DNA from: Parachlorella kessleri
Lineage: Eukaryota; Chlorophyta; Trebouxiophyceae; Chlorellales; Chlorellaceae
Reading direction: 5' to 3'
DNA: 64,000 nt
Assembly (NCBI GenBank): GCA_001598975.1
Contig: BBXU01000292.1
Span: forward strand, 1-64,000
Of the stretch, positions 19,379 to 58,451 are shown in pieces (the stretch's first letter is position 1; each line of letters begins with the position of its first letter). The translations under genes were made by a program, and so were the position numbers. The notes beneath the pieces were generated by a model. It saw only the letters and a list, made by a program, of their open reading frames with translations. It was not told the DNA's origin and made no database searches.

Positions 19379-22300
19379 CTACTCACCCACGCCGCTGGAA
19401 CTCCTTGCCCGACTGGCAAATGACCGCAGCCTGCCCAGCGTCCTGCCCCTGCTCAGCCTCGCTTCGAAGCTCGGCGGCTGGAGCGGCCGCCCGCTGGCCA
19501 CATGCATGTCGCCCACCTCCTCCTCCAAGGGCGCCCCTGGGCCCACGTCCCCAGCGGCTTCACCCAGCAGCTGCCCCTCTGCCGCCTGCGCTGCCTCTGC
19601 CTGCCCAGCCGCCTCCCAGGTCTCCTGCTGCTGCTCTGGGGGCGGCGGCGGAGGCTGTGAGTCCAGGTGCCCGCCGCTGAGAGCTGCAACCTCTGCATCC
19701 ACTGGTGCCGCCTCCTTCTCAGCCGTGGCGCGGGGTGAGGTGGGAATGCTGCCCTGCTCAATCATCTCATAAATGCTGGGCTCCTTGCTGCTGCAGCGCT
19801 TGAGGTGTGCACGCGAGTGCTCGTGCTGGCGGCTAAGCCGGCTGCCCAGCATTTCCTGCCAAGAGAGGGGCCAGCAGTGCACAGCCCTTAGCTGACAGTG
19901 CTAGATGGGCAGCGGTGAATTACCCTGTGTCAGGGTGCTTACACTGGCAACATGGCAAACAGCACGATGGTGCACAAGCCAAGGCCCAGCAACGCACGCC
20001 CTACATCCAAAGCGCAAACAACCTACCCAACCCCACCCTTATAAATTGCTGCTGAAGACTAGTTTTGGTGTAAGGGGCGTCAGTCAAATAGAGCCTGGCG
20101 CCCAGCAATGCCCTCATTACGCCTCCTTGCTGTTGCAACGTCCCTCACAGCCTCCCATCAGCAGAAAGGTAACCTCAGCGCCATTGCCGGCCAGGCAGCC
20201 TTGTCCCACTCATGCACTCATCGCCCAAGTAGGCTATACACTAAGGATCTCAGGACCCACCTAGCGGCCCAACCCACAGGCATACACACCCGAAACACGG
20301 CCCAGCGGCCCACCTTTGGACCCTACCCAACATTACACCCATGGCCTCACCCGCACAAACTTCTCCCCAAGCAGCATGCGCAGCGCGTCCCTGCTGGCCT
20401 CGCCCTGCGCCTTGCTCTTGAACTGGCCGCGGATGACGGCGGCAAAGCTGCGGGCGTATGCCCGCAGGAGGTGCAGCTTGATGGAGCTGCCGGGCCCGCG
20501 CTGAAGGGAGGACTCCAGGAACGAGGGTCGCGGCAGGATGTCGCCTGCCAGAATGTGGGGGGGCTGGTTGGTGTGCCTGGCATATGGAGTGAAGCTTGTT
20601 CCCCTCATGCATGCGTATACAGGTCTCTTGCGAGGGGAGGAGGGGGGGGGGCTGTGTTGCAGAATGGAAAGATAGAACCAAGTGAAACTGTACAGCAGTG
20701 CATCAAGGTACTCCCATTAAAATGGACACACATCCCTGACCCCTGTCAAGCGGCCTGGCGTCGGCAGTGCAAGGGCAGTCATGCAGTTGTCTTGCCTTCA
20801 GCTGTCACCAGCACGCGGTTGGCCGCCCGCTTGTACATCACATAGAACTTGCCTGCAAACCCACCCAAAAACATATATCATGGTAAGTCGACATAACGGC
20901 TGCAGTGGGTTGACATCCTACCAGGCAGGACCAGGAAAGGAGCGGGTGCGGCGACAGGAGGCACCGGCACGCCATATTCAGGTTGCAAGCTACTTGCGAC
21001 TGCCGAAACGTAGCATCGACCGCAGCTTTCAAGCATGGCAGTGCGGCACGCTGGAAGCAGCTGATGCCGAGGCGGCTACTCACCATTCTTGGCCACTGCA
21101 TCGTTGGAGTGGATCACATCCCAGCCGTCGGCAACTACCCGCTGGAAGTCCTTAGCAAAGGCGTGGTTCCCCGGCCTCGGCGATCCAAACGTGTACAGCT
21201 GAACCTGAATGCCAGCAACACACCCAGGAACTAAGCATCGCCCTTCAGCCCCACAGCATGCCTTGCACCCAATGCTCTCCGCCCACAACAATCTATCCCC
21301 TCTGCTGGCAATCCCTGCCACTATTTGACAGGAAGTCCAGTCTATGGGGGCTTGCTTCCCTGCTACTTTCCTCTTGCCGACTCACACCCTTCATGTGCCT
21401 GCCCTGGACTTTGCTGGCAGGACAAGTAGAACAAGGATGCACACCCCCTCAGCATCCAGCAGTGGAAGGATGGCCAGCCCGGGCTGACTTAGCTTTAAGA
21501 CGCGTCTGTGGGGCCCACCTGCACATCCAGGCCCCCAGCCCGCAGCCGCTCTGCCTCCTTGGCCACGTCATACGAGGCAAGCGTGGCCAGCGCACCCCCT
21601 AGGCTGTGCCCAGTGCACAGCACCCGCCACCGCCGCCGCCGCCGCCGCCCGCCGCCGCCCTTTCCAGCAGCCTCTCCCGCCTCCAGGTCAGCACTGCCCT
21701 GCTTGTCGGCGGGGCTGTCCTCGCCACTCCCAGTGCCATCTGCACCGACGCTGCAGCTGTTTAAATCCTCGCTGGCAATGTCGGCACCAGAGGTGCTGCT
21801 GCCCGGTGGGCTGCCACCGCCTACGATCTCCCGTACCCGCTGCAGCAGCCGCTGGTTGAGCCCGCCAGCCTTGTAGGCGTCCAGGAAGCCCTGGTGCACC
21901 ATGGGGCACCGCCACAGCCAGTAGTTGCCGCGCTGTGGGGGGTGCACCGCCCTCCACAACTGCAGCACCAGAGCAGGGAACGCCCGAAGGGTGCCGTGCC
22001 TACGCTCGCAGGAGATAGCATGACGTCGCAGGAACCATCACTTCGACAAACAAAGCAGCCCAACAGAAGTCGTGAGGCTAGGACAGACGCGTGCTCTTAA
22101 GCCTCGACTATGATTGACAGATGAGTAGTCATTGACAGATGAGTAGTCATAAACCCTTTCCAGCTCTATGCCTCAGGACAAGACCAGTGAGGCAGGGTCG
22201 AGATTGCTGTCTTAATGCACGCCCGGCACAACAATCGGCCATAGGCTATCACAAACACGAGCTGGTGCATACAGGGACTGAGTTGTTAGGCATAGTATGC

Positions 22301-25300
22301 CAGCAGCGCACCTTGATATCCGCTAACACATTGGCCATTGACGCGGTGCCCCTGAATCCGATGACAATGATGCCATCTCCCTGTGATGAATGAAGAAAGT
22401 ATTCCATTACCAAGCCTTTCCACATGCTCAGCATGTACCCCGGAGCGCATGCCACATGCAGTGTCGGGGGCATGGCCAAGCACACACCACAGTACGCACC
22501 AGGATGCCACACTCCAAAGAACACAAAGAGCATTCGTACCCATGCCAAGAGGCACTTGGTATCAGTAGGCTCCTTCTGCCACAACATCTCGGTGTGCTTG
22601 AGGTCATACAGCTCCAGCGCTGTCTCCAGCGTGAAGGGCGCATCCTCAATCTGCACAAGCAGACGGGCAGTGGTTTACAGTTGTTGGCAGTTGCCGCTAG
22701 CAGCAGCTGTCAAGGGCGGGAGGTCAATTGAAGCCAGGGCTCTTACCGGTGCAAGGCCCCCAAGGCAGGCTTCCAGTCACTGATGTGCTCGTTTACTTGC
22801 TTAGCTGTGCTACTTTGAAACGTGCACTAGCTCCATTGAATTTGAGAGGTTGGGTGTCACGGCGAGGAAGTGGCAGGCGTGTAGGTACAGGCTAGCCCTT
22901 GCCCAGAAGCAGCAAATCTATGGCAAGGCCATCAAACCCATGTGGGCAGCATAATATGGGTAGATTTAGCCAAGCGCCAACTGCAGGTAGTGCTACCCAC
23001 CTCCTTATGGTAGTACATCAGGTTGGAGAAGTACATCGCCTTAAGCGCCGTCTCAAAGCAGAACATGGGCTCTATGGGCTCCTCCGCCCCTGCCGCCCTG
23101 CCCAACAACGCCGCTGCCGCGGCTCGGACCGGCGCGGTTGCCGCCGCCGCGGTAAATGCGGCGGCGCCCGCCATCGTGCCCTCCTCGCTGCCCGCCTTCT
23201 GCGCCTGCCGCTCCCGGGCGGCTGAGTCCGCCCTCATGGCGGCGGCTGCCTCCATGGCCGCCTCGGCGTCCTGCTCTCTCCAGGCCACCTGGGCGCAATG
23301 TCATGACACGGATCGCTCGGTGCAGGGCTTGAGTAGATGGCCTCCACCAGCACAGGCAAGGCGGTTTCTCCCGCGTCTGACTCGCTACAAAGCACGGGGC
23401 ACGTGCTGCAACAGGTAGTGCCGGTCAGTGGGGCCCAGCTGGGGCTGTGCACACCCAAAATGAACCACCGCCACAGCAGATCCTGCCGCAGTGCTGTCCG
23501 CTACTGCCCAGCAGAGTAGCAACAAGCCCACGCTTGTTCACAGACCGGAGGCACTCATTGTACATCCCGGCCAAGAGGGCACAGACCCCCTCCCTAGGTG
23601 CCAAGGTGGACCAAAGGCAGGCAGAGATTTGTCACCTCTTGGAGGCACTGGTGGTGGTGGAGCTGGCGGGGGGAGGGGTCCACGGGGGCCAGCATGACTA
23701 CGTTGATGACCGCCATGCTGGTCATCGACAGTTGCATCGGCAGCAGGCCAAACCACGTCAGTATGTAGGAGTTGCAGGTGCCTGTACGAATGTACCTGCA
23801 TGCACACAGGCGGTGGGCAGTCAGCATGTCAGCTGTGGGCTGTGTCGTGCCACGCAAGGGGGCCGGGGCAAGAGCGACACATGCACTGCGCTCAATGCAT
23901 GCTGACCCTGGTCATGAAGCGAAGTCGTTCACTGTCCCGCAAATGCCACACTGCATGGGCGCTGCCATAAGATCCATCCCCTATACAGTGCCAACCCGAG
24001 CATCTAACTTCATTTGAGCAGTGAGAGTAGAGAGGCGTACGAAGACTTACCACATGAAAGTGAGGCAAAGGAAGAAGATGCCTGCGTTGATCACATGGAT
24101 GCGTTTGAGAAGCTTCATGCCCACGTTTGGCACCCGATACTTGGTATATGGTAGCTTGGCAAGCTCCCGCTGGGCAATGTACATAAATCCCAGGTAGACC
24201 ACAATCATGAGCAAGAAGAAGGCCGTCATCGTTGATGTGATAGCATAGTATACCCCTATGTCCTGCAAAGAATTACAGGCAAAGATTGAGACGGGCACTG
24301 GGCTTAGAAATAGATGCACACATGACCTAGGAACCGCCCTGTCTCTCTGCGGTTGAAGGGGAAGTGCACCCAGGATGGTGTTTTGCCTGCCATGACGCTT
24401 GCCATCTATCACAAACCACTACATTCTAACCATCAGTCTGTGAGGTTGCTTAAGGGCTACTGCGCACCGAGCCTCCACAACGGCGATGCAAAGAGATTAG
24501 CCAGCTGCCGATCAAGCAACGCCACCAGATCAGGCTCACCCGAAGCTTGCAGGACCAGCCCCACTCTCGGCATGGCAGGCCAGCCTTTGCAGGCAAAGCA
24601 TCGGCAGGGTGACACCCCTCCTCATAGATGCTAGTACACATCGGCATTGGTCCTGCAGGCCCACTTGCATCTCCTATTATGCTACATGTCAGGCACAGCA
24701 AGACATGGCATCCTGCTTGTCTCAGCAACATGTGGCACCCTGCTCGTCTCATGCCACAAGAAGCTGAGCCAGGCCTTGAGAACTTATCCAGAGGAAACCA
24801 TGCCTCCGATGGCATGCAGAGTAAGGCAGGTGGCGGTCCCTCGCTAACAGATCACTTCTCAGCATGATGCAGCATCACAGCAATCTCTTAATCTTCACCA
24901 CTCACCTATGCCCCCCGTCAACCAGAGCAGTAGCACGATGACAGATGCCTGTGCAGGGACCCATAACAGCAGCAGCTCTGGCAGGAGCGCCCAAAAAGGG
25001 AGGTCGTAGCCCATGAGGCCTTCCATGGGTGGCGGCGGCGGCCAGCGCTTGGCGAAGGCCCAGACCAGGGGCTTCATGAGAGGGTGAGTAAGGATGACGT
25101 GAGCGGGGAGCATGCTGTGCGCTTGGATAACAAAGAGGAAGAAAAGCTGCAGGGCAAGGGAGCATACACACTGAGCGTCAGATCGTCACAAGCTGCAACA
25201 CGAGCACCACAACGCCTCGCAAAGCCCATGCCTCAATACATGTCCCATCTGCATAGGGCCCAGCCCAAAAGCCACCATGACGTCCCCACATGCATGGAAG

Positions 25301-26211
25301 GGCACCGGGTGATCGAGGCATCTGCCAGGCACGCTGTGGCCACCGAGCTGCAACAGGTGCTGTGCATGGGGCGATCCTCTTCGACACCCTACCACAAAGG
25401 GCCCCCTAGCAAGTACAAACTCACCGCAGCCCAGCAGGTCCATCGGATGAACCCGAAAACATTAATCGGCAGCAGGTGCCACGGACACGACTCATAGTTT
25501 ACCAGGTAGTAGGCATTGGGTGCCAGGTAGAAGACCGCATTGACCAGCTGGATCACCAGCTGTGTGCACATGAAGCTCACAATGCGCTTCTGTCGGGACC
25601 ACCACCTCTTCCCCGCCCGCTTCACTTTGTACAGCCGCCAGCTGAGGATGGAGCCCGACACAAGCAAAGCTCCCACACATATCGAGCTGACAATCGTATT
25701 CAACATGGTGATTCGGTTATGGGTGTACAGATAATCCTCTTCCTGCAAGGAGCTTGGGCCAGCAGCGGCTTTGGGCAGCCCCGACTCCAAATATTGCCGG
25801 GGATAGGTACCTTTCTACGGCTTTGCCAGCGTTTGGCCCGCAGGTGCACATATACAAGATGGCAGCCAGGAAGGCCCAACATGCTCACCCAGGAGAGCTT
25901 GGCTACCAACTCATAAATCAAAAAGACCCCGGAGGCTACCGAGGTGGATCTGCCCACAAAGGCCGCCACCTGCAACACATGGAGCCAAATGCAAGCTTGG
26001 TGGGGCAGCCGTGACCAGACTGCTGAGTGTTGTTGCTTCGGGACCTGCACCGTCTGCAGTATCAACTTACCCTCGTCACCTTGTCGCTCATATATTGGAG
26101 GCGTAAAGTAACGGTGTCAGGGCTGTAGTGGTTGGAGTGAGGAATGGGCATAGCACCGGGGCCCTCCTCCTCAAGTGTGCTGGCCTTGGAGCCTTCCATG
26201 TCCCCGCTCAT
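19379..26211 (-). CDS. membrane-anchored class 3 lipase, copy A (intact, 15 exons)
   Basis: Predicted polytopic membrane protein with a C-terminal alpha/beta-hydrolase lipase domain, likely acting on acylglycerols or phospholipids at a membrane; substrate unknown. Exons (high to low): 26211-26071, 25969-25889, 25742-25425, 25146-24906, 24652-24540, 24262-24051, 23795-23636, 23288-23001, 22650-22540, 22380-22312, 21959-21519, 21204-21084, 20852-20796, 20544-20351, 19855-19379; 1007 residues. Eight hydrophobic segments lie in exons 2-7; exon 5 is a Cys-rich loop. The lipase part has IVIGFRGTAS (oxyanion region), VLCTGHSLGGALATL (nucleophile Ser), VIHSNDAVAKNG (candidate Asp) and IKLHLLRAY (candidate His). 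The start MSGDMEGSK is the first in-frame ATG. Exon 12 equals exons 12+13 of the other copies fused without an intron. The intron after exon 14 has a GC donor. Head-to-head with copy B. Confidence 0.88.
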
Positions 26212-26826: not shown

Positions 26827-29800
26827 ATGCCGATCAGTGAGGAAAGCTATGAGCTAGGCGTTTCAAGCTCCAGCAAGAGGCATGTTTGCTTTGCTGTGCA
26901 ACTCCTCAGCACTGAGGCCACCAGAGTGAGTTGCCTGGTGCAGTGATATCACGCACTGATGCCAGGGAAGCCCATCCTCTGTAGTGCCACAAAAGGCTTG
27001 ACAAATGCATTGGCCGCTGTGCACCGCAGGTCGGCGTCCTTGTGGTGCGGTTTGTCGCAGCAGCCTCCCTGGCCCTTGTAAACTATGTCTTCATCGCAAA
27101 GCTGTCATTTGTGAGTGATCTGCCCCGCTCCTTCTTCAAGACTGGCCACTAATGGGTGCGAGTGGGGTCAACCGCTGAGGCAGCCGCTTTATCGAGCTAC
27201 CTGGCCCACATTCCCCTTGAACTCACTGCTGCCCGTCTTGCTTTGCAGGACGATGATAAGTACTTCATGGAACATGACCACCTTATGATTGCAAACACAG
27301 CGGTGGCCTCCCTCTGTGTAACTGCTTTGCTCATTGCCGCTGTCATCCTTCTCTGGCGTACGACCCATGCCTGTCAAGCTGGCCTGGTCTGGTGGCCACG
27401 CCAGACACGGGTCTTTGTGTTCGCATCCGTACAGCTGGTGTTGCAGCTGGTCAATGCCGCCTTCTACTTGGCTCCCAATGCTTACTATCTGGCAAAGCGG
27501 GAGTGCTCCTGGTTCTTGCTGCCGATTAATGTCTTTGGTTTCATGCGGTGGAGCTGCTGGGCGGCGGTGAGTTGCTGGGCCCGATCCCTGTTCACAAGGC
27601 AGGCTTTTTTACGCCGTTGTGTTATGCATGCCGGAGTATACTATTGGAAGCTGTACTATGTGTTGGGTGATCCAACTTCATCGCATGGTGGGCTGGCTTT
27701 ACTGGGTGATGTTGTGCAGTATGTTGTCCAGTACCATCTGCACATATCTTGATATGCTTGCAAAGAAATCTACACACTTGGCAAGCGTGCTGAAGTGGGT
27801 TATGCCATCATGGTCGATCCACTGCTGCACTCCACAACACACCCACCGCTTTGATGTGCAGCTCTTCTTCCTCATGGTGGCTCAAGCTCACAGCCTACTC
27901 CCTGCACATATCATCCTGGAACACACAATAATAAAGCCCTTCATCTGGGCCTTTGCCAAGCGCTGGCCTCCACCGCCGCCGGCAGAAGGGCTCATGGGCC
28001 ATGACCTGCCGGTGTGGGTGCTCTTGCCAGACTTGCTGCTGCTGTGGGTGCCTGCCCAAGCTGTGGTCATCATGCTCCTTGTGTGGCTTGTGGGGGGCAT
28101 AGGTGGGTTGTCCTATAGATGCACTTCTTCGTTGCGAAGGGCGCACTTGCAGGTGTGGCTCTACTGGCTGGAAGCAGTACACAAGCCCGCAACTCGTATC
28201 TGCTATGTACAAACCCTCGGAGGATTGACCAGCACACAGTAGGTTGCAGAGAGCAAGCATGCTAGCCTGCGCAGGACATAAGCTTCGATGGCGATTCCAT
28301 GCTAATACTTCATTTTTATTTGGGGCGCTACAGGCTCCTGGAAGAGTTGCACCAGTGTCTACCAGCCAGGGTGCCACCCTGCGGGTGCGCTCCCTGCAAA
28401 AGCAGGCCTGCCCTGCGAAGACTGGGGCTGGTCTTGTAAGTCACAAGTAAGCCAGTTCAGCCAGACACACATAGCCGTAACCCGTGATGGTTAGACCCAG
28501 CAGACTCTTCCTAGTCTTTGGCTAGATGCCACTTTCTGGTTTCATGCGGTGCAGTGTCAAGGCAAGCTTGGACAAGGGTGCAAATGCAGACGTCTTTCTT
28601 CGTGATGCATGACGACCAACTGTTGCTGCTCACTGCAGGTTATGAGCATTGACTACGGTATGCCTTCGGCTGTTGCCGGCATTATCCTTGTCATGATTGC
28701 CGTGTATTTTCTCTATATTTACATTGCCAGCCGGGAGCTTGCCAAGCTGCCATATCTGAAGTATCGGCTACCCAACATAGGCCTCAGACTTCAACTTCAC
28801 ATACAAGTCATGATGGCAGCCATCTTTTTCCTTTGCATTGTTTTCTTGTGGTACGTGACCACGACTGGAGTGATGTATATACCAAGCAGTTGCCTCTGAG
28901 TTGTTTTGTTGACGAGTGCGGTGCGTCATGTGCCTTGCCAACTGATGAGCATCCCTGTTGACCCGTTGTGCAATGCAATGTACCATACACGAGGAGTGCA
29001 TGGTTGGCTGCATTGAGATCAATGAGTGTTAGACCTGGTGGAGGTGCCTGCGTGCAGGTTCATAGACCCAGGCACTTGCAACTCCTACATTGTGTCTTAG
29101 TTCGGTATTCTGCCTATGCAGCTCTCGATGAGCTTCATTACCGTGATTAATGCCTATTTAGTGACCCCGCTTGACGCTTCTCCAAGGCAGCTTTATCATC
29201 ACCAGTGCCTTCAGGAGGTAAGGGCTTGCGGTGCTTTGACACGTCACTCCAGGGACCATGGTCGGTCACAGGGAGCCCATACTACCCCGCTACCAGCGGT
29301 CTGATGACTCCAGGTGCCACTTGGGCCATGCCCAACCTGGCTCCTCTGGTTCATGGACATGAGCTGCACAGCATTGTGCTAGAATACGTGCTGGGTTGTG
29401 CAAGCAAGTATACCTAGCTTGCATGACCGTAGGGAAACTGGTCAAATGCTAAGTATGCCCTTGCTGGAGGCGTGGGGGCATATTGCACCCTGCCCTGCTT
29501 ACCAAGTGGCATGACTGTGCACTGGCCACAGGTTGCCTGGCGGGAGCAAGGTTCCGATGTTGCCAAAGAGGTAGCGGTAGCTATGAAGGCGGCCTCTGCC
29601 AAGCGGCTTTTGGCAGGGGTTGCCCATCGAGGCGTGGCAGGAGCGGCGGCGGCAGCAGCTGTGGCACCAGTCCGAGCTGCAGTAGCACTGGCGGCAGCTA
29701 CGGCCAGGGCGGCGGCAGCAGCTGTGGAAGGGAATGAAGAGGCTGGAGAGCAAGGGTTGGTGCCTCATAATCAGATGGAGCCCATGTTTTGCTTCGAGAC

Positions 29801-43345: not shown

Positions 43346-46300
43346 CTACCTGCCACCCTTACTGGCAACATGCATGTCGCCTGACCCCTCTATGGAGGGC
43401 ATAGGTCCCAAGCCTGCTACTTCTCCGTCCATCCGCTGCTGCTCTGCAACCGGCGCTGCCGTAACCTGCCCAACTGCCTCCCAGCTGGGCTGCTGCTCCT
43501 GGGGGCGCTCCTGCTGCCTTTCAGTCTGAGGCCAGCCGGGCAGCATGTCAGTAGCAACGCGTGCCGCAGGGGCAGACTCTGCACCTGCTGCTGCTTTCCT
43601 CTCTAGGGTCGCCTGGGGGCAAGGACTGCTGCAGCTGGGATCCAACGCTTCATCGAAGCCGAGCTCCTTGCTTCCCAGGTTTGTAGAGAGTTGTGAAGGC
43701 TCCGAGCGTTGGCACCTGCTCGAGGGAGCCTGCTTCCCAAAGCTCAGCAGGCTGCCCAGCATTTCCTGCAGGCAGGGTCCTTTGGGGCAGTTGCATTTCC
43801 CACAACCGACAGTAAGGTGTTAGTGTGATAACAGCTGTCAAGGTTGGCCTGATGGTGCTGTGAGCAGCCAGGACACCTCGGTGGTACAGTGTGCTGCTGA
43901 TAGGCCTCCATGGATGCCCTGGACCAGGCATTTGGTGCGGTGGCCTGTTAGGACACCCATTTTGCTTGCCTGCACCAGGGCCTGCTATGCCCACAGTCTG
44001 GTCTGGCTGGCTCAACCCTGGCAGCACCCTCAAGGATATTCTGCACATGCTCAAGGAGCACACCCATGAACATCACCACACCCCGCCACCCACCCACTTG
44101 CCAGCCCTAGGTTTTACCTCCACCCACCCAAAACCGCACTGTGTGGCCCAGCTTCCCCCAGCACTCGCTACCAGGAGGGTCCACCTCAGTAACACCCGCA
44201 CACCACCAAAGCTGCCGGCCCACCCACCCACCTACCCCAAGACCCTCCCTTGCCCGCATGGCCTTGGTACAACCCGCAGACATCTTCCTTGCCAACCGCA
44301 AATTGGCCATGCATTCATACTCATACCTCTCACCCAAGCCTTATATGCACAATCCTAGGACCCATCAGTTCCTCAAAGTCTACTTCATACAGCTAAACAG
44401 TTAAGGAGTGTGAGACTGGCTGGCTCAGACACTTGGGCAAGCCAGAGCATCCCTTACATCCAGCGTGTCAGGACAATCGAAGATATGCCTCCATTGCCCG
44501 CACTATCTGTTAGCCATGATAAATGTAGTACGCGCACCCCCGCATTGACTTAGCGTTGACTTAGCACACTTTTTAAGATACTCCGCACCTGAGCATACTT
44601 GTCCCCCAGCAGCGCACGCAGCGCCTGCCTGCTGGCCTCGCCTTGCGCCTTGCTCTCGAACTGGCCTCGAATGACAGCAGCAAAGCTGCGTGCATAGGCC
44701 CCCAGCAGGTGCAGCTTTATAGAGTGGCCCGGGCCTCTTTGCAGCGACGACTCTAGGAAGGAGGGCCGCGGCAAAATGTCCCCTGCAAGAAAAAAGGAGG
44801 CGGGAGCCAGGGCAGCAAGTGGACAGACCGAAGCACTGATAAACATGTCATTCCAGTGTCATGGGGGCAGGAGAGGGGGAGGGGCAGTGCAAGGGACCGA
44901 GACAGGAGTTGCAGATGCGACCAGGCATCCTGTAGCCATGCTCCAGACCTTGTGCGTGAGGGTGAGAGGCATCACCCAAGCCTGCAACCCCCTATTTCTG
45001 CTGCTGCTAACAGGACATGCTGATCTGCTAGCTGGCCCGCCTTACCTTCAGCTGTCACCAACACACGGTTTGCTGCTCGCTTGTACAACATAACAAATTT
45101 GCCTGCAGGGCAGACAACGGCGGCTATGTTGCCCACAGCGAGAGCGCTCTCCCGCAATGACAGCAGCAGCCACCTTGCCATTGGCATTCCTGTTTCCGCA
45201 CGAGCTGAGCAGGAAACACCGCCACCGTGAATGCTATTGGTACTTGATTTTGGCAACCTGGCATGGCGTGAGGCATGGCCATCACTCACCTCCCTTTGCC
45301 ACCGCATCGTCACTATGGATCACGTCCCAAGCATCTTGTACCATCCGCAGGAAGTCCCGGGCAAAGGCGTGGTTCCCAGGCCTGTACACCCAACTCAGCA
45401 CTCACTGTATGCCAGACCAGGGTCACAAAATGCTATCCAGGCCCCCATTCTGCAGCAAGCTAGCTGGCATATAGTGCATTTAAGATGGAATGCCCGTGAC
45501 AATAAAGAGTCAGACAGCAGCGTGGCGGCTGCCACTTGCGTCAGCAAGCAGTTAGCAAAGCAGCAAGTATCGAAAGCAAGCGACAACTGAGGCCAGAAAC
45601 AACATTTGTGCATGTGTGTAGCGGTACTCTTTACCTTGGGGCGCCGAAAGTGTAGAGCTGGACCTGCACAATACATGATGGCAGTGAAACCTAGTGTTGA
45701 GTATCAAAGCTGGTAATGCCGTGACTGACCCTAGCACACTAGGAGGTATGCTGGAGGCCTAGCATGCCTCCCACATGCGAAGAGGGGTTTAAGGGCAGAA
45801 CCAAGCTGAACGGAAAGCCTGGAGTGGTATCCTCTGGTGCGCAAACTTACCCCACATCCCTTCTCTGCTGACCCATGCATCATGTGCCCTCCCTAAACTC
45901 GCTAATGGCCCAAGTACAACATAAATGCACACCTCACCAGCGCAATACAGCCCCAGATGACCTAGCTAAAACGTCCTCGCTTGCATGAGGCCCACCTGCA
46001 CATCCAGGCCCTCACTCCGCAGGCGCTCTGCCTCCTTGGCCACGTCATAAGAGGCCAGCGTGGCCAGCGCACCCCCCAGGCTGTGCCCAGAGCACAGCAC
46101 CCGCCACCGCCGCGGCCGCTTCCCGCCGGCACCCTCGCTGGCACTGACGCCCTTCCCCTCCTCTACATCGTCATTGCTGCCCGACATCTCCCTGGAGCCC
46201 TCCTCCCAGCCGTCCTTGCCAACATTGCCACAGCTGCCCATATTGTGGCTGCTAGTATGGCCCTCTGCTCTCATGATTTCTCGCAGCCGCTGTAGCAGCC

Positions 46301-49300
46301 GCTGGTTGATGCCACCGGCTGTGTAGGCATCCAGGAAGCCCTTATGCACCATGGGGCGCCGTGACAGCCAATAACTGCCCCGTTTTGGGGGGTGCACTGC
46401 CCGCCACACCTGCAACAGCCACATTCTGGAAGCTCAAACCAGGTTGTGTAATAGAGGTGGTCCAGCAGGGTGGAGTGTTCTTGATAACAATCCTATGGCA
46501 CCAAAGAATACTTCATGAGCCATGCATGGCATTGTCTGAACCTCACCCTGCACCCACGACTTGTTTGTTTCTGCAAAGCTCTGCCCAGATGGGTGCCGCA
46601 TGATAATTTGGCGAGGTGGCAGGTGCGGTGCAACGGGCTGAGGCAAGAGATGCGCCCAGCAACAGCCAATTTGCATGAGGACAGCCAGCCTTGCCTTGAT
46701 GTCAGCCAACACGTTGGCTAGAGATGCTGTGCCCCTGAAGCCCACCACGATGGTGCCATCTCCCTGCAGGAACACACCATGGCTGTAGCAGCTTCGATAC
46801 CCTTTTTATGTGACATGCATGCAGTGCTGTCACTATGTCCCAGATGGCAATTCAAATGCAGCGGCAGGACCTGCTTTGATGCATGCTGTGCCAAGGTGAC
46901 TGAGCAAGGCGGGCGGAGAGCGCAGTCCAACTCACCCAGGCCAGCAGGCACTTGGTGTCACACGGTTCCTTCTGCCAAAGTAGTTCGAAATGCTGGAGAT
47001 TGTACAGCTCCAGCGCCGTCTCCATTGTGAAAGCCGCGCTTTCTTCCTGCATACAATGCAACTCCAGCCACATTGGTTTTTTGCTATTTATAGGCTGGAA
47101 ACGGCCAAAACCAAACAGCAATCCATAGATCACCAAGCACATGTTGAGGCTTGCTGGGAACTTGCACAACTACATCGCTCAGGCTATGCTCCCAAGCAGA
47201 ATGCCTACATAGTGGGTGGGCCGGTGGGGTCTGATAGAAACCCAGGGCTTCCCCGGTGGCCAGGAAACAGTTGGGCATATAGGACGGCACATGGTCTTGA
47301 CCCCCCCACAACACCCAGGCACAACATGCACCCAGCAGCCAACGCCGCTACCTCTTCATGGTAGTACATAAGGTTGGAGAGGTACAGCGCCTTAAGCGCC
47401 GTCTCAAAACAGAACATGGGCTCCATCTGGTCCCCCTGCTCCAGCCCCTGCGACCCGCTTGGCTCCCCTTCCCCAGCCAGCGCCGCTGCCGCTGCTCGGA
47501 CCGGTGCCCCCGCCGCCGCCGCCGCTGCAGCCACAGCGCCGCCCTGGTACCCTGCTGCACCCCCTGCCAGCAGCCACTTGGCGGAGGCTGCCTTCATGGC
47601 TGCCTCTTCCTCTCTGGCTGCCTCGGCGTCTCCCTCCCGCCACGCCACCTGCAGCCCACACCGGCAGATGGTGCTGGGTGCACTCCACCCTGCAGAACTT
47701 GCAAGCTTGTTGGTAGGAGGGCAATGGTGAAGATGGAGTGATGCACACTCAACCTTGGCAGTCACACAAGCGTGGTATGTCCACGACCCACCTCCTGGAG
47801 GCACTGGTGGTGGTAGAGCTGGCGGGGGGAAGGGTCCACGGGTGTGACCATGACGCAGCTGATCACCGCCAGGCTGGTCATGGTGAGTTGCATGGGCAGC
47901 ATGCCGAACCACACAAGCACATAGGAGTTGCAGTTGCCCAGGTGAATGTACCTGCGCTCAGCCAAAGGAGTACGGACATCTGCACAATAGACAGCGGGCA
48001 GGAGCATGTGGCTTTCCAGACAAGACCGTACATGGCTCGCAGCAGTTTGTTGTCTACAGGCGGATAGGCCACCACAGGCCTAGGTAGCAGGGGGTGCAGA
48101 GCACATGATTGCTGCTAGCATGCATGGCGAGGCAGCAAGAGAGCATCAGCAGCAGGTTCCCAGGGGGCTGGGAGCACGCTCAGCAAACAGCTGACATTGC
48201 AGCGACGCACCACATGAAGGTGATGCAGAGGAAGGAGATGGCCGCCATGACCAGCTGTATGTGGACCTGCAGCTTGAGGCCCATGTTGGGCGCCCGGTAC
48301 TTCGAGTAGGGCAGCTTGGCCAGCTCCCGCCTGGCCAGGTACATGAACAAGAAGTAGGTGCCAATCATGATCAGGAAAACGCCGGCCACCGTAGATGTGA
48401 TGGCGTAATAGATGCGCCTGTCCTGCAGGAGGGCACCAACAGGCCCCTTCAGGTGTCCCGAGGCTATTATTTGGGACATGAGTTAACTTAAAATTACACA
48501 AATTTATTCAGTTTTTATTACAAGTGGGATTCCGTGGTTGGTTTATCGAAAACTGATATACAGGTGGGAACCGCTTGTAGGTGCTCGGCAGGCATACAAC
48601 ATGTCAGGGGGCACTGGAACTCAATTAGTAGGGATCCCCAACCTAAATTCAGCGCTGCTATGAAGGTCCGCCCACCTTGTGCGTCTGACAGTTGGCATCA
48701 AGCCTGACTGCAGAGGGATCTCTTGCTAAGCACCAAATGCAGCGCCTCAGGGCTCACGCCCTCGCACTATGCAACCCCCGCCGGAAACCTGCTTGCCTGG
48801 AGGTCGCATGTCCAGCCCCACTCCTGACATGGCAAGGCCGCCTTTGCAGGGAGGGCACCCTCTGGGGCGCAGCCGGGGTCATAAATGCTGACACAGCTCG
48901 TGATAGTGCCTGTAGGGCAGCGCCAATGGGAGCACGGCGGCCAGGTGCGGAAGCGGGTCAGCAACCAGCATCAAAGGCGCCGCCTTGCTTGGCCTTCCAT
49001 ACCTACCTAGTTATGGACACAGCAACGCAATCACTAACAAGCCTGCACCACCGCTGGTCAGTGTGGAGGCTGCAGCTGCCTCACAGCATGTGTGCAATGC
49101 GGGCCATGGGTCCCCAAGGAGGGGGACCCCAACAATATCAACCAACCACCGCGCGTACACATCTTCTGCAGCCCCCAGAACCAGGTGCAGACTCACCGAT
49201 GCCCCCGGTAGTCCACACCAGCAGAATGGTGACAGCCGCCTGTGCCGGCAGCCACAGCAGCAGCAGCTCTGGCAGGAGCACCCAGAAGGGGAGGTCATAG

Positions 49301-50620
49301 CCCATCAGGCCTTCCTGGGGCGGCGGCGGAGGCCAGCGCTTGGCAAAGGCCCACACTAGGGGCTTCATGAGAGGGTGAGTCAGGATGACGTGAGCTGGGA
49401 GCAGGCAGTGGGCTTGCGCCACCAGGAGGAAGAACAGCTGCAGGGCAGCCAGCATGCCGGGGTGGGCGACCGGCGGCAGCACGGCTGGCTGCTCACGCTG
49501 TGGCTTCTCTCTGGCAAGCCCCCGCACAATCACAGGAGCTACGGACGAATACACACCTACTCAGGCAAAGCAACAGAGTACGTATAGGCATGTCATTCAG
49601 GCCAAGAGCGCTAGGCCCCATGTGCCTTCATACAAGGCTAGCCTGGGGCCTTATAAGACGGAAGGCACACTTTTCCCACACAAGCATTGCCAGTGCCATC
49701 ACGCACCCAGTCCACCGTTTTAAGCACACAGATGATTAAGCAAGCCTCACCGCCGCCCAGCAGGTCCAGCGTATGGAGCCAAACACATTGACGGGCAGCA
49801 GAAACCAGGGGCACGAGTCTCGGTTTGCCAGGTAGTAGGCGTTGGGTGCCAAGAAGAAGGTTGCATTGACAAGCTGCACCAGCAGCTGTGTCGCCATGAA
49901 CGACACGACCCGCCTCTGCCGTCGCCACCACGTCTTGCCGGCTCGGTTGACTTGGGCGACGCGCCAGGCAAGGGCGGCACCGGCCGCAAACAGCGCAGCC
50001 AGGCACAGCGACCCCACCACCGTGTTTGCAATCATGAGGTTGTCATGTGTGAAGTAGTAGTTGTCCTCCTGCGCAGCGAAGAGGGTAGCAGTACTGCCAA
50101 CAACCAGGTGTGCACCAGGGCTGTCCAGCACACTAGCTTTGCCGGGCGCATGAGAGACAGCAAGTTGTGTAACAGGTTTCACGATCATGGGGCAGTATCG
50201 CCAGCCTGCTTTTGAGACACCTTAGGAGAACACTTACAAACGTCAGCTTTGCGACAATTTCATAAATCAAAAGGGCCAAAGCGGCAGCGGCGGCGCAGCG
50301 CCCCACCAGCGCCCCCACCTGCAAACAATGCACCGCGGCAGCCCTGAACTTGCGGATTCACCATAGCACCTGTGCAGAAGCACGCAGTCGCATGTTACAA
50401 GCGCCACCAAGCTGAGGCTCACCCTGGTAGCCTTGTCACCGAGGTACTGTAGACTGAGAACAACGTGCTTATCAGAGTAGTAGTTTGAGGAAGGTATGAC
50501 TGCGTCGGCGGCGGGGGTGCCCTGCTCCTTAGCTGCGCCCACGGTTCCAGAGCTGACCCAAGGGGCCTCTCTCTTCCCCAGCTCCCAGTCTTCGGAGCCA
50601 TAGGTTTCAGGAGCCAGCGT
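43346..50620 (-). CDS. membrane-anchored class 3 lipase, copy D (start codon lost)
   Basis: Same family, reading frame open throughout. Exons (high to low): 50620-50423, 50318-50238, 50068-49751, 49437-49197, 48909-48797, 48422-48211, 47951-47792, 47648-47352, 47046-46936, 46763-46695, 46409-45996, 45663-45635, 45381-45290, 45102-45046, 44782-44589, 43765-43346; 1002 codons. At the place where the closest sister (C) has ATG CTG GCA, D has ACG CTG GCT (ACG at 50618-50620). An in-frame TAG lies upstream, and the next in-frame ATG is in exon 3, after the first membrane segment. Use of ACG or a nearby CTG, or a damaged gene, are the options. VLCSGHSLGGAL, HSDDAVAKGG and LHLLGAYARS are intact. Introns 5 and 10 have GC donors. 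Divergent from copy E. Confidence 0.85.
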
Positions 50621-51319
50621 TGCTATCAGCCTTGACCAAGGCTATCTCCTAGGCGCACAAGTGGCGGGCCCACTATCTATTTGGTGTACCTCAACGCCAT
50701 AAAGGGAACACAAGTAGAATACCAAAGCGTCGTGTAGCAGCTGAAGCTGTGACTTTGCCTCTATTCGCTAGCTGCGTAGGGACCTTCTTAGTGTACGACC
50801 AGCAGCATTGCTTGGGAATAGTTTCTGCGGCGACTCATATTAAGCACAACGCACAACCATGGCCGAGCTAGCTAGCAAATACGCTAGCAAATTCACAGGT
50901 GATCACATAGGTGATCACAAAGAATTGCGGAGTTCACCTGGGTCCGGATGTATTTCTTCAGCACGTCTTCACTTATCTAGGAACTCTGCACATTAAGTCT
51001 CGCAAGACGCAGTAAGTAGTAACTTAAGTAACTATGCAACCCTGTCCATTGTCTGTCGACGTTTACGAAGCTATTTGGTTTGCTGCTCCGTATTGTTTCT
51101 AGCTTCACGTTCCGTCAAATGATATATAGCGATTTATTCAGCAGCGCTACCATGCCATATGATGCTGGCAAGGGTCCCTGCTTTGGTGGTGGGCTTTGGT
51201 GGTGGGCACGATAGCTCCTCCGTAAGTATTGTGTCACACAGTGGGTTGTTGACCCACTTGAAAAGTGCTAGACTCTGATATAACGCTGCACACACCCTGG
51301 CCGGAAGAGGGGGGCGACT
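50621..51319. promoter_or_regulatory. bidirectional promoter region of copies D and E
   Basis: 699 bases. TGATCA occurs at 50900-50905 and 50912-50917 within a short direct repeat (AGGTGATCACAT / AGGTGATCACAA), beside a second direct repeat CTAGCAAAT at 50872-50880 and 50884-50892. A TATAAC element at 51279-51284 lies about 40 bases before the copy E ATG. The region is homologous to the C/psi promoter. Confidence 0.6.
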
Positions 51320-54300
51320 ATGGAAGGCCCCAAGCCCGGTGCACCTTGGGAGGAGAACGGCATGGAACCCTTCCCTTCCTCCAACCACTACTCAGAGCAG
51401 CACGTCACCCTTCACTTGCAGTTCATCAGCGACCAAATGACCAGGGTGAGCTGCCTCTGATCCTGTTTCGGATATAGTGGTGCCCCAGTGGCGGGCGGGG
51501 TGCCATCTCTTATGGTGCCGCTTGTGTGCAACGCAGGTGGTGGCCTTTGTAGGGAAGGCGGTTGCGACAGCCGCCTTTGCCTTGTTGATTTATGAAATAG
51601 TTGCCAAGGTCTCATATGTAAGCACACTTTTGATGAAAGCATGTAATCCAAGCACCCGCTCTGCAGTATAACAAAGTTGTTTCGTGCATAACACCCTAGT
51701 CCGCCCACCTGTTGGGCTTGTATTTGTTAATGCATAGCTGCAACTACTGCCTCCACTTCCTGCAGGGCGACAACTACTTCTTCATGCACGACACTGTCAT
51801 AGTTGCGAACACAGTGGTGGGGTCGCTGTGTCTGGCAGCACTGTTGGGCGCCGCCACTGCCCTCTGCTGGCGTATCACACATGTCAATTGGGCGGGCAAA
51901 GCATGGTGGTCCCGCCAGAGGCGGGTTGTGATCTTGCTGTCGGCACAGCTCTGGCTACAGCTGGTGAATGCCACCTTCTACTTGGCGCCTAATGCCTATT
52001 ACCTAGCCAACCGCAGCGAGTGCCCCTACTTTCTGCTGCCGATGAATGTCTTTGGGTTCATACGGTGGACCTGCTGGGCCGCGGTGAGTCATGAGAGGTT
52101 AGAGCACTGCGCTGACGGGGCATCCACCTCCAGAGGAGCCTGCTGGGTGTCCCACAGTGCCGTGTTAAGGTTCTGGAAGGAATGTGCTGACTTACATGAA
52201 CTGAGTGTTGTTTACAGCATGGCAGCAGTGTACTGCACCTTTGACAACACTGGCATTGTCAAGCCATGCCACGGCCGTACCCCACCCTAGCCTGGTTGTG
52301 TGCCTCCGCAGCTGTTCTTCCTGCTGGTGGTGCAAGCGCACAGCATGCTGCCCGCTCACGTCATCCTGACTCACCCCCTCATGAAGCCCCTGGTCTGGGC
52401 CTTCGTCCAGCGCTGGCCTCCGCCACCACCCAGCGAAGGCCTGATGGGGTATGACCTGCCACCGTGGGTGCTCCTGCCCGACCTGCTGCTCCTATGGGTC
52501 CCCGCTCAGGCCACAATAGTTGTGATGCTGGTGTGGCTGACCGGTGGTGGCATAGGTGAGTCGCTGTATCGCTACGCACAAAAAGCATGTCATGCATCTC
52601 CATGCACGGGGAAAAGCTGTGGTTGGTATACCAACCTGGCTCACTGGTGGCGACATTGGTTACTCCCTGTAGACGAGAAATTGCATGCAGGAGGGGTGTC
52701 CGAGGGCAGCGGCTGTTGTAGAGTACCGGCGTCCGCTTGACTGGAAATGAAAGAGGGCCGTGTGGTTCCTAACCCAGGTGCTTTCCCGTTGCCCTCCCGA
52801 CGGATGACGTGAGTGACGGGCCTCAATGGCTGGCGCATCAAGGGTCTGCATGCCCGATTTTGCAGGCACGCGGACAAGCTGCACCAGCATTTATGACCCT
52901 GGCTGCGCCCCGGAGGGTGCGCTCCCCGCTAAGGCTGGCCTGCCCTGCCAGGACTGGGGCTGGTCTTGCAACCTGGCGGTGAGCCTGCGGGCGGGTTGGT
53001 GGGCAGTTGAAAGCAGCCATGGCAGCAGGGTGCCAGCTTTGACAGTGCTCCCTGGCCACCAGCCAGTCCTCTGCTGCAGCCACAACTGTCTAGCCTACTC
53101 TAGCGGCAATTTGCCACTTGGCCATGCTGCCGTGGGTGCGGCACAACAGGACTACACAAAGCCGACATATGTGGCTATATCAGCACCCCGAGACGCGCCA
53201 TCCTTGCTGGGCTCGAACCCAAGGCACCCACACACATGGTATGTGCGGACCAAATGAATATTGCCTTCCTACTCTGCCGGCTGTCTCATGCAGGATATGG
53301 GCATCTACTACGGGATCACATCCACCATGGCGGGCCTCTTCCTCATCATGATTGCCACCTACTTCCTCTTCATGTATCTGGCCAGGCGGGAGCTGGCCAA
53401 GCTGCCCTACTCCAAATACCGGGTGCCCGACATGGGGCTGAGGCTCCAAGTGCACATCCAAGTGGTCATGGCGGCCCTGTTCTTCCTCTGCGTGATCTTC
53501 ATGTGGTGCGCCGGCTACTCATCCCTGGGCCAGTCTTCCCTGCTAGCCGTGTTGTCAAGTGCACGACAGGCCTGGTTAATTGCATGGAGTTCAAAGCTGG
53601 CTGCATGACTGCTTGGGCCAAGCATCTTGGCTGGTCTATGGTCGAACCAACCCCTTGCGCATTCCCTCCTTCCACCATGCCATGCGGTCTGTGATGGGCT
53701 TGCATGCACACTGTGGCTGGCCATGCTGACCGTGGGCTCACACCTTGGCCTTCAATTCTGAGGACCACATCCTTGCCCTCACTTTTTACATGCAGGTTCG
53801 TGCACGCAGGCACCTGCAACTCCTATGTCCTGGCTTGGTATGGCATGCTGCCAATGCAGCTGGCAATGAGCAGCCTGGCTGTCATTAATGCGGTCATGGT
53901 GTGCCCTGTGGACCCCTCACCCCGCCAGCTGTACCACCACCAGTGCCTGCAGGAGGTGCGAGCATGCTAGCAACAAGTGTTTACAGCATGCTTCCCAACA
54001 ATGGCACCATGCCAAGGCTTGCTAGGCTGTTGCGGCCCTTGAAACCCTGCACTAATTGCAGGGGGCTTTGTGCTCCACAGGGCAAAGAAGGGCCTGGGTG
54101 CCCAACCCACTCCGGGCGGCCCCTATGTCTTTTGCATTGTCACGCAAAATCGCTGCACGCTGTGATGGCTGCAGCTTGCAGAAGCCTGGACCGTGTCATA
54201 TGTCCTGAGATCCTTGCCGATAACGGGCTGAGGGGCCTGGCCCTGGGCTGCAGGTAGTGTGGAGTGAGAGAGATGCCGAGGCGAGTAGAGCGGCAGCGGC

Positions 54301-57300
54301 AGCCATGAAGGCAGCCTCGGCCAAGCGGCTGCTTGCCGAGGGTGCAAGGCTCAGGAATGGGGGGACCGTGGCCGCCGCCGCCGCAGCTGCCGTAGCACCA
54401 GTTCGGGCAGCAGCAGCTGCCGCAGTCGCCACGGCTAGGGCGGCAGCTGGGATCCTGACTGGGGATGGGGAGGCTAGGGAAGAGATGGAGCCCATGTTTT
54501 GCTTTGAGACGGCGCTCAAGGCGATGTACTTGTCGAACCTGATGTACTATTACAAGGAGGTGAGCTGATATGTCTGGAGGCCTAAATGTGCAAGGTGCCC
54601 TTGGCCTTCTGGTAAGGTGACGTATGCGGCAAGCTTGTGCATGCGCGCTGTGTGTGTACCCATGGGCGCTGCGCCCTGCTGTCTTCTGTGGATGCTGACT
54701 TTGACCTGTGATCATGTCCTCTCCTGCTTGCTTGTGGGTGAGGCAATCAGCCCTGATTAGGGGCATCACCCTTGTTGGCAACCCCAGCCTCTCTGCCAAC
54801 GCGTGCAGTCTGCTGGAGTATCGTCGACCGCATGACAGCATCTCAGCTTGCACCTGCTCTGTGTGCATGATGTTGGCTGGAGGTGCCCCACAGGAAGTTT
54901 GATGGTGGCAAGTAGGCAAACAGAGCAGAGCTGGGGGGTGGAGTGTACTGACAAGGCTAAATGCAGTTATGCTCTGTTGCCCTGTGCTCAACTTCACAGG
55001 ATGAAGGCACACCTTTTGTGCTGGAAACGGCCCTGGAGTTGTACAGCCTCCAGCATTTTGAGCTTCTGTGGCAGAAGGAGCCGACTGACACCAAGTGCCT
55101 GCTGGCCTGGGTGAGCCGGGTGACTTGCAACCACTGTGAGACTTGCTTTGCACCCTTGGATGCTGTAGCATGTCTCTGCTGCTGACCTGCAACGCTTCCC
55201 ACCAGGGGGGTGCGGAGGTGCATGCCGTGCACGCCGTGCGGTGGGCAAGGTGGTAAGGCTGGCTACTAAATCTGCCTCAGCACTTTGGGTGTGTCTGCAG
55301 GGAGATGGCACCGTCGTGGTGGGCTTCAGGGGCACAGCGTCCCTCGCCAATGTGCTAGCGGATATTAAGGCAAGCGGCTGGCTGACTGCTGTATTGCTAG
55401 TTCCGCAGCGTCCTCCTCCTTTCTTCTGACCAGCCCAGCCAAACTGCACACACAGTGTCGCGCCAGTCCTCTGTGGTGCCTTGTGTAGGGAGGCCTTCTG
55501 CGGTCATATTGATCTGCACATATTGCTCTTCATCTTTGTCCAGTGTCCCTCCCTTGAAAAGCCCAGGCACTGCCCTCCATACATCCTGTACAGTCGTGCT
55601 GGGGGCAGTCCTTGGAACAGTGGTGCCCTGAAAGGCTGCAGGGTATGAGGACCGCTGATTCTTCCTCCCTGCTGGTGACAGACAACAGTCCTGCACTGCT
55701 GCCGCAATTTTACCCATCACACCACCAGACTTGTGCTCCCAATTCCTGCCTATGGCAGGTCTGGCGGGCAGTGCACCCCCCAAAGCGTGGCAACTACTGG
55801 CTGTGGCGGTGCCCCATGGTCCACCAGGGCTTCCTGGACGCCTACAAGGCTGGCGGGCTCAACCAGCGCCTGCTGCAGCGGCTGCGAGAGATCATGGGGT
55901 CGGACGACAACATATGCACAAGCAGCGGCGAGGGCTTGGGAAGCGGCGGCGGCGGCAGCAAGGGCGGCATGCGAAGCCAGTATTCAGGCGGAGGCGATGT
56001 GGAGATGGGAGCGAGCAAAGGCGCCCAAGGGGGCGGCGGGAGGCGGCGGTGGCGGGTGCTGTGCACAGGGCACAGCCTGGGGGGTGCGCTGGCCACGCTG
56101 GCATCGTATGACGTGGCCAAGGAGGCAGAGCGCCTGCGGGTTGGGGGCATAGATGTGCAGGTGGGTATGGCAGGTAAGACAGCATAGCTGGCTGGCTGGC
56201 GGGTGGGCTGGCTGGCTGGCTGGCTGGCGGATACGCACCAAGCCAACCGGTGCTTTTCCAACTAACCTGGATTTGGCCATGTCACCTCCAAGGCTGGTGC
56301 GCTGGACGGCAGGGTGGCGTTGGTGTTGTCCGACATGATGGAGTGGAGCAGCTACTGGCGGCTCAGGGCTGCTATGTGGTGCTCAAAGCGGGGTGCAGGT
56401 GCAATGCAACTGTTTATTTCCGATGCAGTGCGAAGCTTGATATCGACGGTGTGTTGCTGCTGTGCAGGTCCAGCTGTATACTTTCGGGGCACCAAGGTAA
56501 GCTGTACTGCTGCATAGTTGCACTGCATGACAGCTAGCTGGCAGTGGGCCGCAGTGTATGATCTGGCGGTGCCCAGGTCTGGCGTGCTGTGAGTGCTGAG
56601 GTGATTGTGCAGGCCAGGGAACCACGCCTTTGCGCGGGACTTCCTACGGACGGTACAGGATTCCTGGGACGTGATTCATAGTGACGATGCTGTGGCTAAG
56701 GGAGGTGAGTGGATGGCTTTCGCTGTAAGACCTACCAGGGTGCTGCATGGTATGCAGTATGCAGTCTACCTGTGCTTGCACACCACGAGGGTAGGGATGG
56801 CTGGAAGCACCGGCTCGGAGCTGGTGCATCTGTCTGGAGCAAGAAGTGCAAGTGCTAGGAGCTGTTATCATGTCCGAACGGCTCAGAGGATGGCACTTGT
56901 GTCCTGCAGGCAAGTTTTTTCTTCTTTACAAGCGTGCGGCAAACCGCGTGCTGGTGACAGCAGAAGGTGAGCTGGCCCTCAGACCAGAAAACAAGGCTTC
57001 CACAGTGTACTTGTCGGCAGCAAAAAGAGCAGGGGTTTGCAGGCTTGCAGGTGGCGTCATGCCAAATCACCCTGCATGGAGTCCTGCAGTGGGACATGCT
57101 CTATTGCCTAGCACGGTGGCTGAAGGCCTCTTAGTGCCTCCAAAGTTATTACATTCCACTTTCTTTGCTGCACAGAGGCCAGTCCGTCCTCCACACACCC
57201 AACCCACTGGGCACTCCTCGCCACTCCACTGGCCCCCCACCTCCCGCCTCATGTCCTGCAGGCGACATCTTGCCCCGCCCCTCCTTCCTAGAGTCCTCGG

Positions 57301-58451
57301 TCCAGCGCGGTCCCGGCCACTCCATCAAGCTGCACCTGCTGGGGGCCTATGCCCGCAGCTTTGCCTCCGTCATTAGAGGCCAGTTTGAGAGCAAGGCGCT
57401 GGGCGAGGCCAGCAGGCAGGCGTTGCGCGCGCTGCTGGGGGAGAAATACGTTCGGGTGAGGAAGGTCTTTGGTACCAATAGACAGGGGTGGGCAGGTGGG
57501 TGAGTAGGTCTACTGTTGGTTGCGATTGGCACTGCATTGGAGTTATGACTAAATCTGCCTTAGGGCAGGGCACAGAAGTGGTCAATCTCCTGTCACTAGC
57601 TGGAAGGATGTAAGCGTGGCAGAGTGGGGGCTAGGAGGCCAGTAGCACAGATTTCATCAGTACTTGTTGCTCATCGTTTTAGAAGGAGTGCGGTGGGCAT
57701 GCCGTCCAGCCCTGAGGCAACCTGTTCGTGGCTTTCTCCTCATATATATCTTGCTGCAGAATCCGAGCTATACCTCGCATGGATTGTTGGTACACGCTTT
57801 GCACACGGCATGGCCAGGCACCCTTCCCACACCATCACGGATGGCTCTTTGATGCTCCTGCACCTCTTTATCTAAGCAAAAAGCCTCCCTACCAGACGTG
57901 TTGAGTCGCCGAGGACATCTTTGCAGTCTGCCGAATCCGCGCGTTGTATGCGCAACAAGCTAGGCCAGAGCAAACCCTTCCGTGACTGAGGCCCGTGCTG
58001 TGCTGTGCTGCAGGACATGCTGGGCAGCCTGCTGAGCTTCCACCACCAGCAGCCGCTCCTTTCCCGTCTGCGCAGCCACCTGCCGCACGCAGGGCCCTCC
58101 TTGCACCTGGACAGCAAGCAGCCCAGCGACATTGATATCCTACACCAAAACAGCCAGTCCTCGCCTGCGGCAACAGGCAGCGCAGGACTTCTAGCGAATG
58201 GTTCTGCAGGTGCTTCTAACAGCATGATGGTCGGCTCGCCGCCGCAGCAGCCTTCGCTGCCGCCGCAGCAGCAGCATGGGAGTCTTGGAGAGCAGCTTCC
58301 CACTTGGGAGGCAGTTGGGCAGGCAGAGGCAGCACAAGGAGAACGGCGGAAGCTCCAAGGCGGCAAAGAGGCTCAGGGCTCTGAGCCCGGGTCTCCAGTG
58401 GCGGAGGTCGGCGACTTGCATGTGGCCAGCGAGCAGCGGCTGCAGGGGTGA
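51320..58451 (+). CDS. membrane-anchored class 3 lipase, copy E (intact, 16 exons)
   Basis: Best reference copy. Exons: 51320-51445, 51537-51617, 51766-52083, 52312-52555, 52866-52978, 53294-53505, 53796-53955, 54254-54559, 55000-55110, 55301-55369, 55759-56160, 56468-56496, 56613-56704, 56910-56966, 57262-57455, 58014-58451; 983 residues. The start is MEGPKPGAPWEENG. Predicted membrane segments lie at about 43-65, 79-106, 124-150, 157-195, 222-248, 299-325, 343-364 and 370-398. The loop at about 257-294 has several Cys plus DWGWSC. An Ala-rich linker spans about 430-490. Lipase domain: VVVGFRGTAS (about 560-569), CTGHSLGGALA with Ser about 686, VIHSDDAVAKGG with Asp about 749, and IKLHLLGAYARS with His about 798. 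The tail is disordered. The fold and triad are inferred from the class 3 lipase pattern; substrate is unknown. Intron 10 has a GC donor. Confidence 0.9.
56186..56230 (+). repeat. GGCT tetranucleotide microsatellite
   Basis: About ten near-perfect GGCT/GCTG units just after the exon 11 donor in copy E; absent from the same intron of the other copies. Confidence 0.75.

Follow-up and report, generated by a model that had tools for sequence, protein, structure and literature searches.

Among described enzymes, class 3 fungal-type lipases (PF01764), for example that of Rhizomucor miehei, offer one of the closest comparisons for a group of genes of the green alga Parachlorella kessleri that lie within a 64,000-nucleotide stretch of draft genome sequence (GenBank assembly GCA_001598975.1, contig BBXU01000292.1, positions 1 to 64,000 of the forward strand; the window). 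The products predicted from these genes share with the fungal-type enzymes a domain match, a GHSLGG motif, invariant Ser, Asp and His residues and a model of the alpha/beta-hydrolase type, but they add eight membrane helices, an alanine-rich linker and a long tail that is modelled at low confidence. Comparison of the sequences makes it probable that the six related units of this locus, here called A to F, form an array of membrane-anchored class 3 lipase genes which grew by local duplication, with a direct tandem duplication as the last step and unit D as the junction that it left.

A class 3 lipase domain that comes after membrane helices is also characteristic of the sn1-specific diacylglycerol lipases (DAGL alpha and beta), which have four N-terminal membrane helices; the Parachlorella proteins, with eight, depart from that pattern, and DAGL was not among the matches listed, which excludes nothing. 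A predicted N-terminal transmembrane module plus lipase domain is described for Lip_4551 and Lip_2999 of Chlorella vulgaris (PMC7910983), and by that description the Parachlorella lipases share this arrangement; the accessible portion of the report mentions neither an array nor a receptor-like fold. In the G-protein-coupled receptor (GPCR) bigrams of oomycetes and other organisms, as outlined in parts of two papers, a seven-helix receptor domain is joined in most types to a C-terminal enzyme predicted to be intracellular, and the fusion types include kinase, phosphatase, cyclase, phosphodiesterase and protease (PMC5784254; PMC6033456). The main texts of these two papers and of PMC12716839 contain no word that begins with 'lipase', and the Parachlorella proteins differ from GPCR-bigrams by one extra helix and in that no GPCR family is among the Pfam matches listed for them. 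The galactolipase ckGL reported from Chlorella kessleri is, in the available text, a 53-kDa enzyme (PMC5794828).

As to how such loci grow, the title of a report on the yeast CUP1 tandem arrays ascribes them to unequal nonhomologous recombination (PMC4232551). The joint within unit D resembles what that title describes in being without long homology, whereas the Parachlorella unit ends inside two paralogous genes of an older, mixed-orientation cluster. The array is a lineage-specific local gene cluster, a known kind of system, and both membrane-module class 3 lipases and GPCR-bigrams are already in print; neither this array nor a receptor-lipase fusion was found among the listed titles and abstract openings of open-licence literature. 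Overall, the expansion of this gene family is genuine though fairly ordinary, and what is unusual is the design of the proteins.

Layout of the array and its last duplication

The six units extend from the stop codon of A (19379) to that of F (58451), and the matching blocks among them (E up to 1e-6) have identities mostly of 66-90%, with a few short ones above that range, a similarity beyond chance. Copies were aligned exon by exon with inspection of the ends, and the models were built on conserved frame and splice signals, without transcripts. The first-pass annotation had described six related genes in the strict order minus, plus, minus, plus, minus, plus; six related units in this order are indeed seen, five of which are full-length genes and the sixth of which, D, is a chimera and not a full copy. 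The full-length genes, together with one intron of B, are:

19379-26199, minus strand: gene A, gene model of 15 exons, open, 1003 amino acids, without intron 12
26827-33236, plus strand: gene B, gene model of 16 exons and 1015 codons, open except for one in-frame TAG (codon 369, 29098-29100, exon 7)
31252-31389, plus strand: intron 12 of B, present also in C, E and F, missing from A and from a paralogue on contig C168 of the draft genome
33977-40816, minus strand: gene C, 16 exons; the frame is shifted in the G-rich linker portion of exon 8 (37694-37402), and the tail exon holds a TGA (34228-34226)
43346-50620, minus strand: gene E, 16 exons, open over 1001 codons, ACG where C has ATG
51320-58451, plus strand: gene F, gene model of 16 exons, open, 983 amino acids

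The splice positions are shared, as had been claimed, and exon lengths are the same in all five full copies for 11 of 16 exons (2, 3, 5, 6, 7, 9, 10, 12, 13, 14 and 15, with the fused 121-nt exon of A counted as 29 + 92); the claim of uniform lengths does not extend to exons 1, 8, 11 and 16, which vary, to exon 4 of F, which is 3 nt longer, or to A, given its missing intron. The same annotation had taken A and E as the open copies, and no internal stop occurs in either model or in that of F, which belongs with them; since ACG replaces the ATG of C, however, E being open is not the same as E being intact. On these models A, E and F, and probably C as well, are plausible as working genes. The function of B was probably lost late and D is a fossil; only B, with its one stop codon, and D look broken.

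An AG was imposed by construction at the 3' end of every modelled intron, and the donor is GT in 68 of the 74 introns and GC in 6. All GC donors read GCAAG and are found in introns 5 and 10 of C and E, intron 10 of F and intron 13 of A; those common to C/E and to C/E/F could be used as rare markers if transcripts confirm them. Intron 15 of B holds a tandem repeat of 2.2 copies of a 51-base unit (window 32315-32427).

The last duplication step can be read from D, which on sequence grounds is a junction chimera of an F-like 5' half and a B-like 3' half, not a decaying full copy. The segments concerned are:

41434-42314, plus strand: 5' half of D, F-like upstream DNA, introns and exons 1-3 with the frame broken; 83.7% identical over 869 aligned columns to F 51230-52112
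42315-42324, no strand assigned: joint of the two halves of D, without long homology
42325-43116, plus strand: 3' half of D, the end of a B-like last exon and DNA past the stop of B; 77.1% identical over 785 aligned columns to B 32985-33800
32985-42314, no strand assigned: putative duplication copy 1, comprising the end of B, C and the 5' half of D
42325-52112, no strand assigned: putative duplication copy 2, comprising the 3' half of D, E and the first exons of F

A global alignment of 32900-42330 with 42250-52130 gave 73.5% identity between the two copies over 8916 aligned columns, with collinear local blocks. C and E can be aligned across their introns (6306 bp in total), and the B-C spacer has a single other match in the draft genome, the D-E spacer at 42536-43283 (73%). 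Two collinear direct copies joined at one junction are what a direct tandem duplication leaves. The first-pass annotation had proposed duplication of divergent gene pairs, a unit whose boundaries would lie outside the pair, but for the last step, the only one on which this bears, the copied segment starts in the last exon of B and ends just after exon 3 of F, inside two plus-strand genes. One direct tandem duplication between these points, the second of them in an F-like gene, is thus well supported by the alignments as an account of D, of the C/E match and of the spacer match. Because no long sequence is shared at the D joint, a nonhomologous origin of the duplication joint is likely. Compared with C, intron 15 of E has ~390 extra bases (window 43982-44381); no second match that would point to a mobile element was found for them in the draft genome, in a search that skips common words.

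The history proposed here begins with an earlier array of A (minus), B (plus), C (minus) and an F-like gene, which is well supported from the sequence. A segment of 9.3-9.8 kb, from the last exon of B through all of C to a point shortly past exon 3 of the F-like gene, would then have been duplicated in direct tandem, making E, leaving F whole and leaving D as the junction chimera, and short tracts were likely exchanged between copies afterwards. The earlier copies may have arisen one by one through local duplication in inverted orientation, beginning with A, followed by B and after it by F and C, a sequence of events for which the evidence is mixed. The locus is in this way a readable case of growth in a mixed-orientation cluster, in which a junction chimera marks where one duplicated segment began and ended, changes in splicing give hints on the sequence of the other steps, and likely conversion tracts show exchange between copies.

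Predicted membrane helices and a class 3 lipase domain in one chain

The full copies encode proteins of ~1000 residues in which eight membrane helices precede a class 3 lipase. PF01764 was matched by all members of a 19-sequence alignment (E up to 1), including P0002, the protein annotated for E in a second P. kessleri assembly, at 78.8 bits against a cut-off of 22. A lipase Ser-Asp-His set with GxSxG (S659, D722 and H771 of the protein P0001) is invariant in 14 of 14 and 19 of 19 sequences; by their position, D722 and H771 are the presumed catalytic residues. There are eight hydrophobic segments in E and F and nine in A and B, one of the nine being in the lipase part, and the structure model of P0002 has eight long helices by inspection; a simple count gives 4-9 segments before the lipase in 14 other proteins, so eight is not fixed by that count. 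The two structure models are of paralogues, built on overlapping alignments (14 and 19 sequences) and so not independent; the exon-2 helix is missing from P0001 and the exon-5 loop from P0002. Loop 1-2 has a net positive charge in 18 of 18 rows and loop 5-6 in 19 of 19, and under the predicted topology the lipase domain would be on the cytosolic side. Intact proteins are predicted to hold eight helices in the membrane and to hydrolyse an acyl ester of a glycerolipid with the Ser-Asp-His domain in the cytosol. Since lipid production is a subject of research in P. kessleri, several probable membrane lipases are practical targets there; gene editing has been reported for strain NIES-2152 (PMC10916037). 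Proteins of Aureoumbra, Pyropia and Scenedesmus (P0021, P0022 and P0029) likewise have a class 3 lipase domain preceded by six to nine membrane-like segments, and the architecture may therefore be widespread in algae.

Resemblance of the membrane part to a seven-helix receptor is predicted but unproven. That these are receptor-enzymes, in which a GPCR-type seven-helix sensor with one leading helix is joined directly to a cytosolic lipase, as a lipase-bearing analogue of the GPCR-bigrams, in several green algae and locally multiplied in Parachlorella, is a tentative and rather doubtful proposal; if it is true, algae would have a sensor-wired lipase in one chain. For the 19 aligned members, the Pfam listing up to E 10 comprised 22 families and no GPCR family among them, in a search whose HMMER filters drop weak matches, and one member had a Wntless-like transmembrane match (0.12). 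In a viral structure library the top matches were class 3 lipases, with weak receptor matches lower among the best 50, and four proteins searched against NCBIfam gave only matches far below the cut-offs. G-alpha and RGS (regulator of G-protein signalling) had no match in the draft genome, which is fragmentary and in which exons were searched apart, so absence is not shown; the G-alpha control matched only in Thermotoga, below its cut-off, and the RGS control matched nowhere. Within this limited sensitivity, the lack of a G-alpha match would fit direct coupling of sensor and lipase. Elsewhere in the draft genome, contig C412 has one GOST-type transmembrane exon (26.8 bits, cut-off 25.2).

Competing explanations, constraint and exchange between copies

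The window comes from a 50.86-Mb draft of 1642 contigs, as contig C180, and a 2016 draft of strain NIES-2152 is described, in the part of its report available, as a product of pyrosequencing with 58.3% GC and 1643 contigs over 10 kb (PMC4724957). Such fragmentation could suggest that one or two loci had been written several times, the artefact named by the first-pass annotation as the outcome that would undo its claim, but this is extremely improbable. Blocks differ by roughly 10-34%, the introns of A, B, C and F are mostly not alignable, and in the second assembly the locus tags of B, C, E and F are consecutive, each of these genes being on a contig of 3,067,154 bases. Model F is 99% identical to N2152v2_003102, and when P0001-P0004 were compared with the window by tblastn (matches above 90% identity in the right copy retained: 767, 880, 679 and 390 aligned residues), there were 52 mismatches and 2 gap positions, by inspection all at exon edges. 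For B, C, E and F, divergence and the second assembly together rule the artefact out.

A birth-and-death cluster in decay, with most copies pseudogenes, would explain the stop in B, the frameshift and tail stop in C, the lack of an ATG at the expected place in E and the broken state of D. The earlier claims of successive stages of decay and of rapid turnover were nevertheless mostly unsupported, and we regard this explanation as unlikely. The ratio of nonsynonymous to synonymous divergence (dN/dS) is 0.22-0.29 in all ten pairs, with the odd codon of C and the stops masked. The frameshift in exon 8 of C is absent from N2152v2_003100 (P0003), which reads through, and it is likely a run-length error of pyrosequencing; P0002 starts differently from the model of E, and P0004, annotated for B, spans exon 4 to exon 8, so that the TAG is avoided. 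Simulated free drift of B over its full branch (0.38 substitutions per site, DNA tree) gave a mean of 30.5 stops and a minimum of 17 in 500 runs, and drift at 0.05 substitutions per site gave a mean of 5.5, with one or fewer in 3% of 500 runs; the single stop of B is thus a late one. Nei-Gojobori dS is 0.46 between C and E and 0.79-1.16 in the nine remaining pairs; the expansion is therefore old, and copy divergence rules out a recent one.

The five genes form one clade (support 100/100), which bears out the view of a local expansion; its nearest neighbours are another paralogue of P. kessleri and a single gene from each of three Micractinium species, and C and E are sisters within it (99/100 with 18 rows, 95/93 with 11). 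Whether the earlier steps copied a head-to-head pair twice as a unit, to give A/B, C/D and E/F, is a separate matter. The strand order and the head-to-head spacers of 627-713 bp (start codons at 26199 for A and 26827 for B, 40816 and 41530 for C and D, 50620 and 51320 for E and F) are as such copying would leave them, and for the step from A/B to C/F the 18-row protein tree weakly places A with C+E (36/79) and the 11-row tree has a B+F branch (65/38). The last direct duplication by itself sets the strands of D and E, however, so only four are independent and would alternate by chance in 2 of 16 cases (our own arithmetic), which makes alternation weak evidence of a rule. Approximately unbiased (AU) tests gave p 0.033 against A+C+E (F+C+E, 0.387; A+B, 0.466; A+F, 0.118), and in the DNA tree F groups with C+E (77.7/76). 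The donor of intron 10 is GC in C, E and F but GT in A, B and the C168 paralogue, and among the five genes only A is without intron 12; these splice changes favour, without proving, the order (A,(B,(F,(C,E)))). Together with the position of the D joint, this makes growth by divergent pairs improbable as a whole and disfavours it for the earlier steps, on evidence that is mixed and weak.

Exchange of sequence was examined with a fragment test (codon-block permutation, tenfold correction). With all polymorphic sites, fragments were significant for A-B in exons 15-16 (0.003), A-F in exon 11 (0.003), C-F in exon 6 (0.003) and A-C in exon 4 (0.047), and with third positions for A-B (0.003), A-F (0.010) and C-F (0.037). 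D and F share 72 identical bases, a length reached in 0 of 2000 column shuffles, and B and D share 44 (1 of 2000). Gene conversion between copies is likely on this basis, its extent being uncertain, and two tracts are proposed:

20351-20544, minus strand: exon 15 of A, where conversion with B 31978-32171 is likely; proportion of synonymous differences (pS) 0.22, the A-B pair as a whole having 0.59; P after correction 0.003 with all sites and with third positions, without significance for silent codons
41600-41671, plus strand: 72 bases common to D and F (51385-51456 in F), likely conversion

Several results weigh against growth by successive local duplication, or against parts of it, as preferred here. 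Support for the order of A, B and F is weak: in addition to the 18-row placement of A, the 11-row protein tree sets A+B+F against C+E (83/77), and these two trees conflict with each other and with the DNA tree. The C168 paralogue is also without introns 5 and 7 and so may simply be prone to intron loss, and A may once have had intron 12 and lost it. The global alignment of the two duplication copies was forced end to end and includes windows at 0.48-0.51 identity. On silent codons only the A-F fragment reaches 0.05, and in a longest-run test between copies no run survives the tenfold correction. For gene A, the 26 and 7 proteins listed include no annotated counterpart from the second assembly, and the predicted inner stretches of loop 3-4 and after TM7, the seventh transmembrane helix, are positive in only 9 of 19 and 7 of 19 rows.

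The C168 paralogue (C168:9800-16500) corresponds to N2152v2_002969, with a 100% match over several stretches and nearly so elsewhere; this gene lies ~130 locus tags from the array, on a second-assembly contig of the same length as that of the array, and shares several splice sites with the array genes. Within the window, neither RNA families at the gathering threshold nor tRNAs (bacterial code) were found. To the left of the array, two open stretches on the plus strand (window 4146-5936) belong to an ATP-dependent DNA ligase gene, with profile scores of 32.0 bits for PF01068 (cut-off 26.2) and 25.8 bits for PF04679 (cut-off 27.5).
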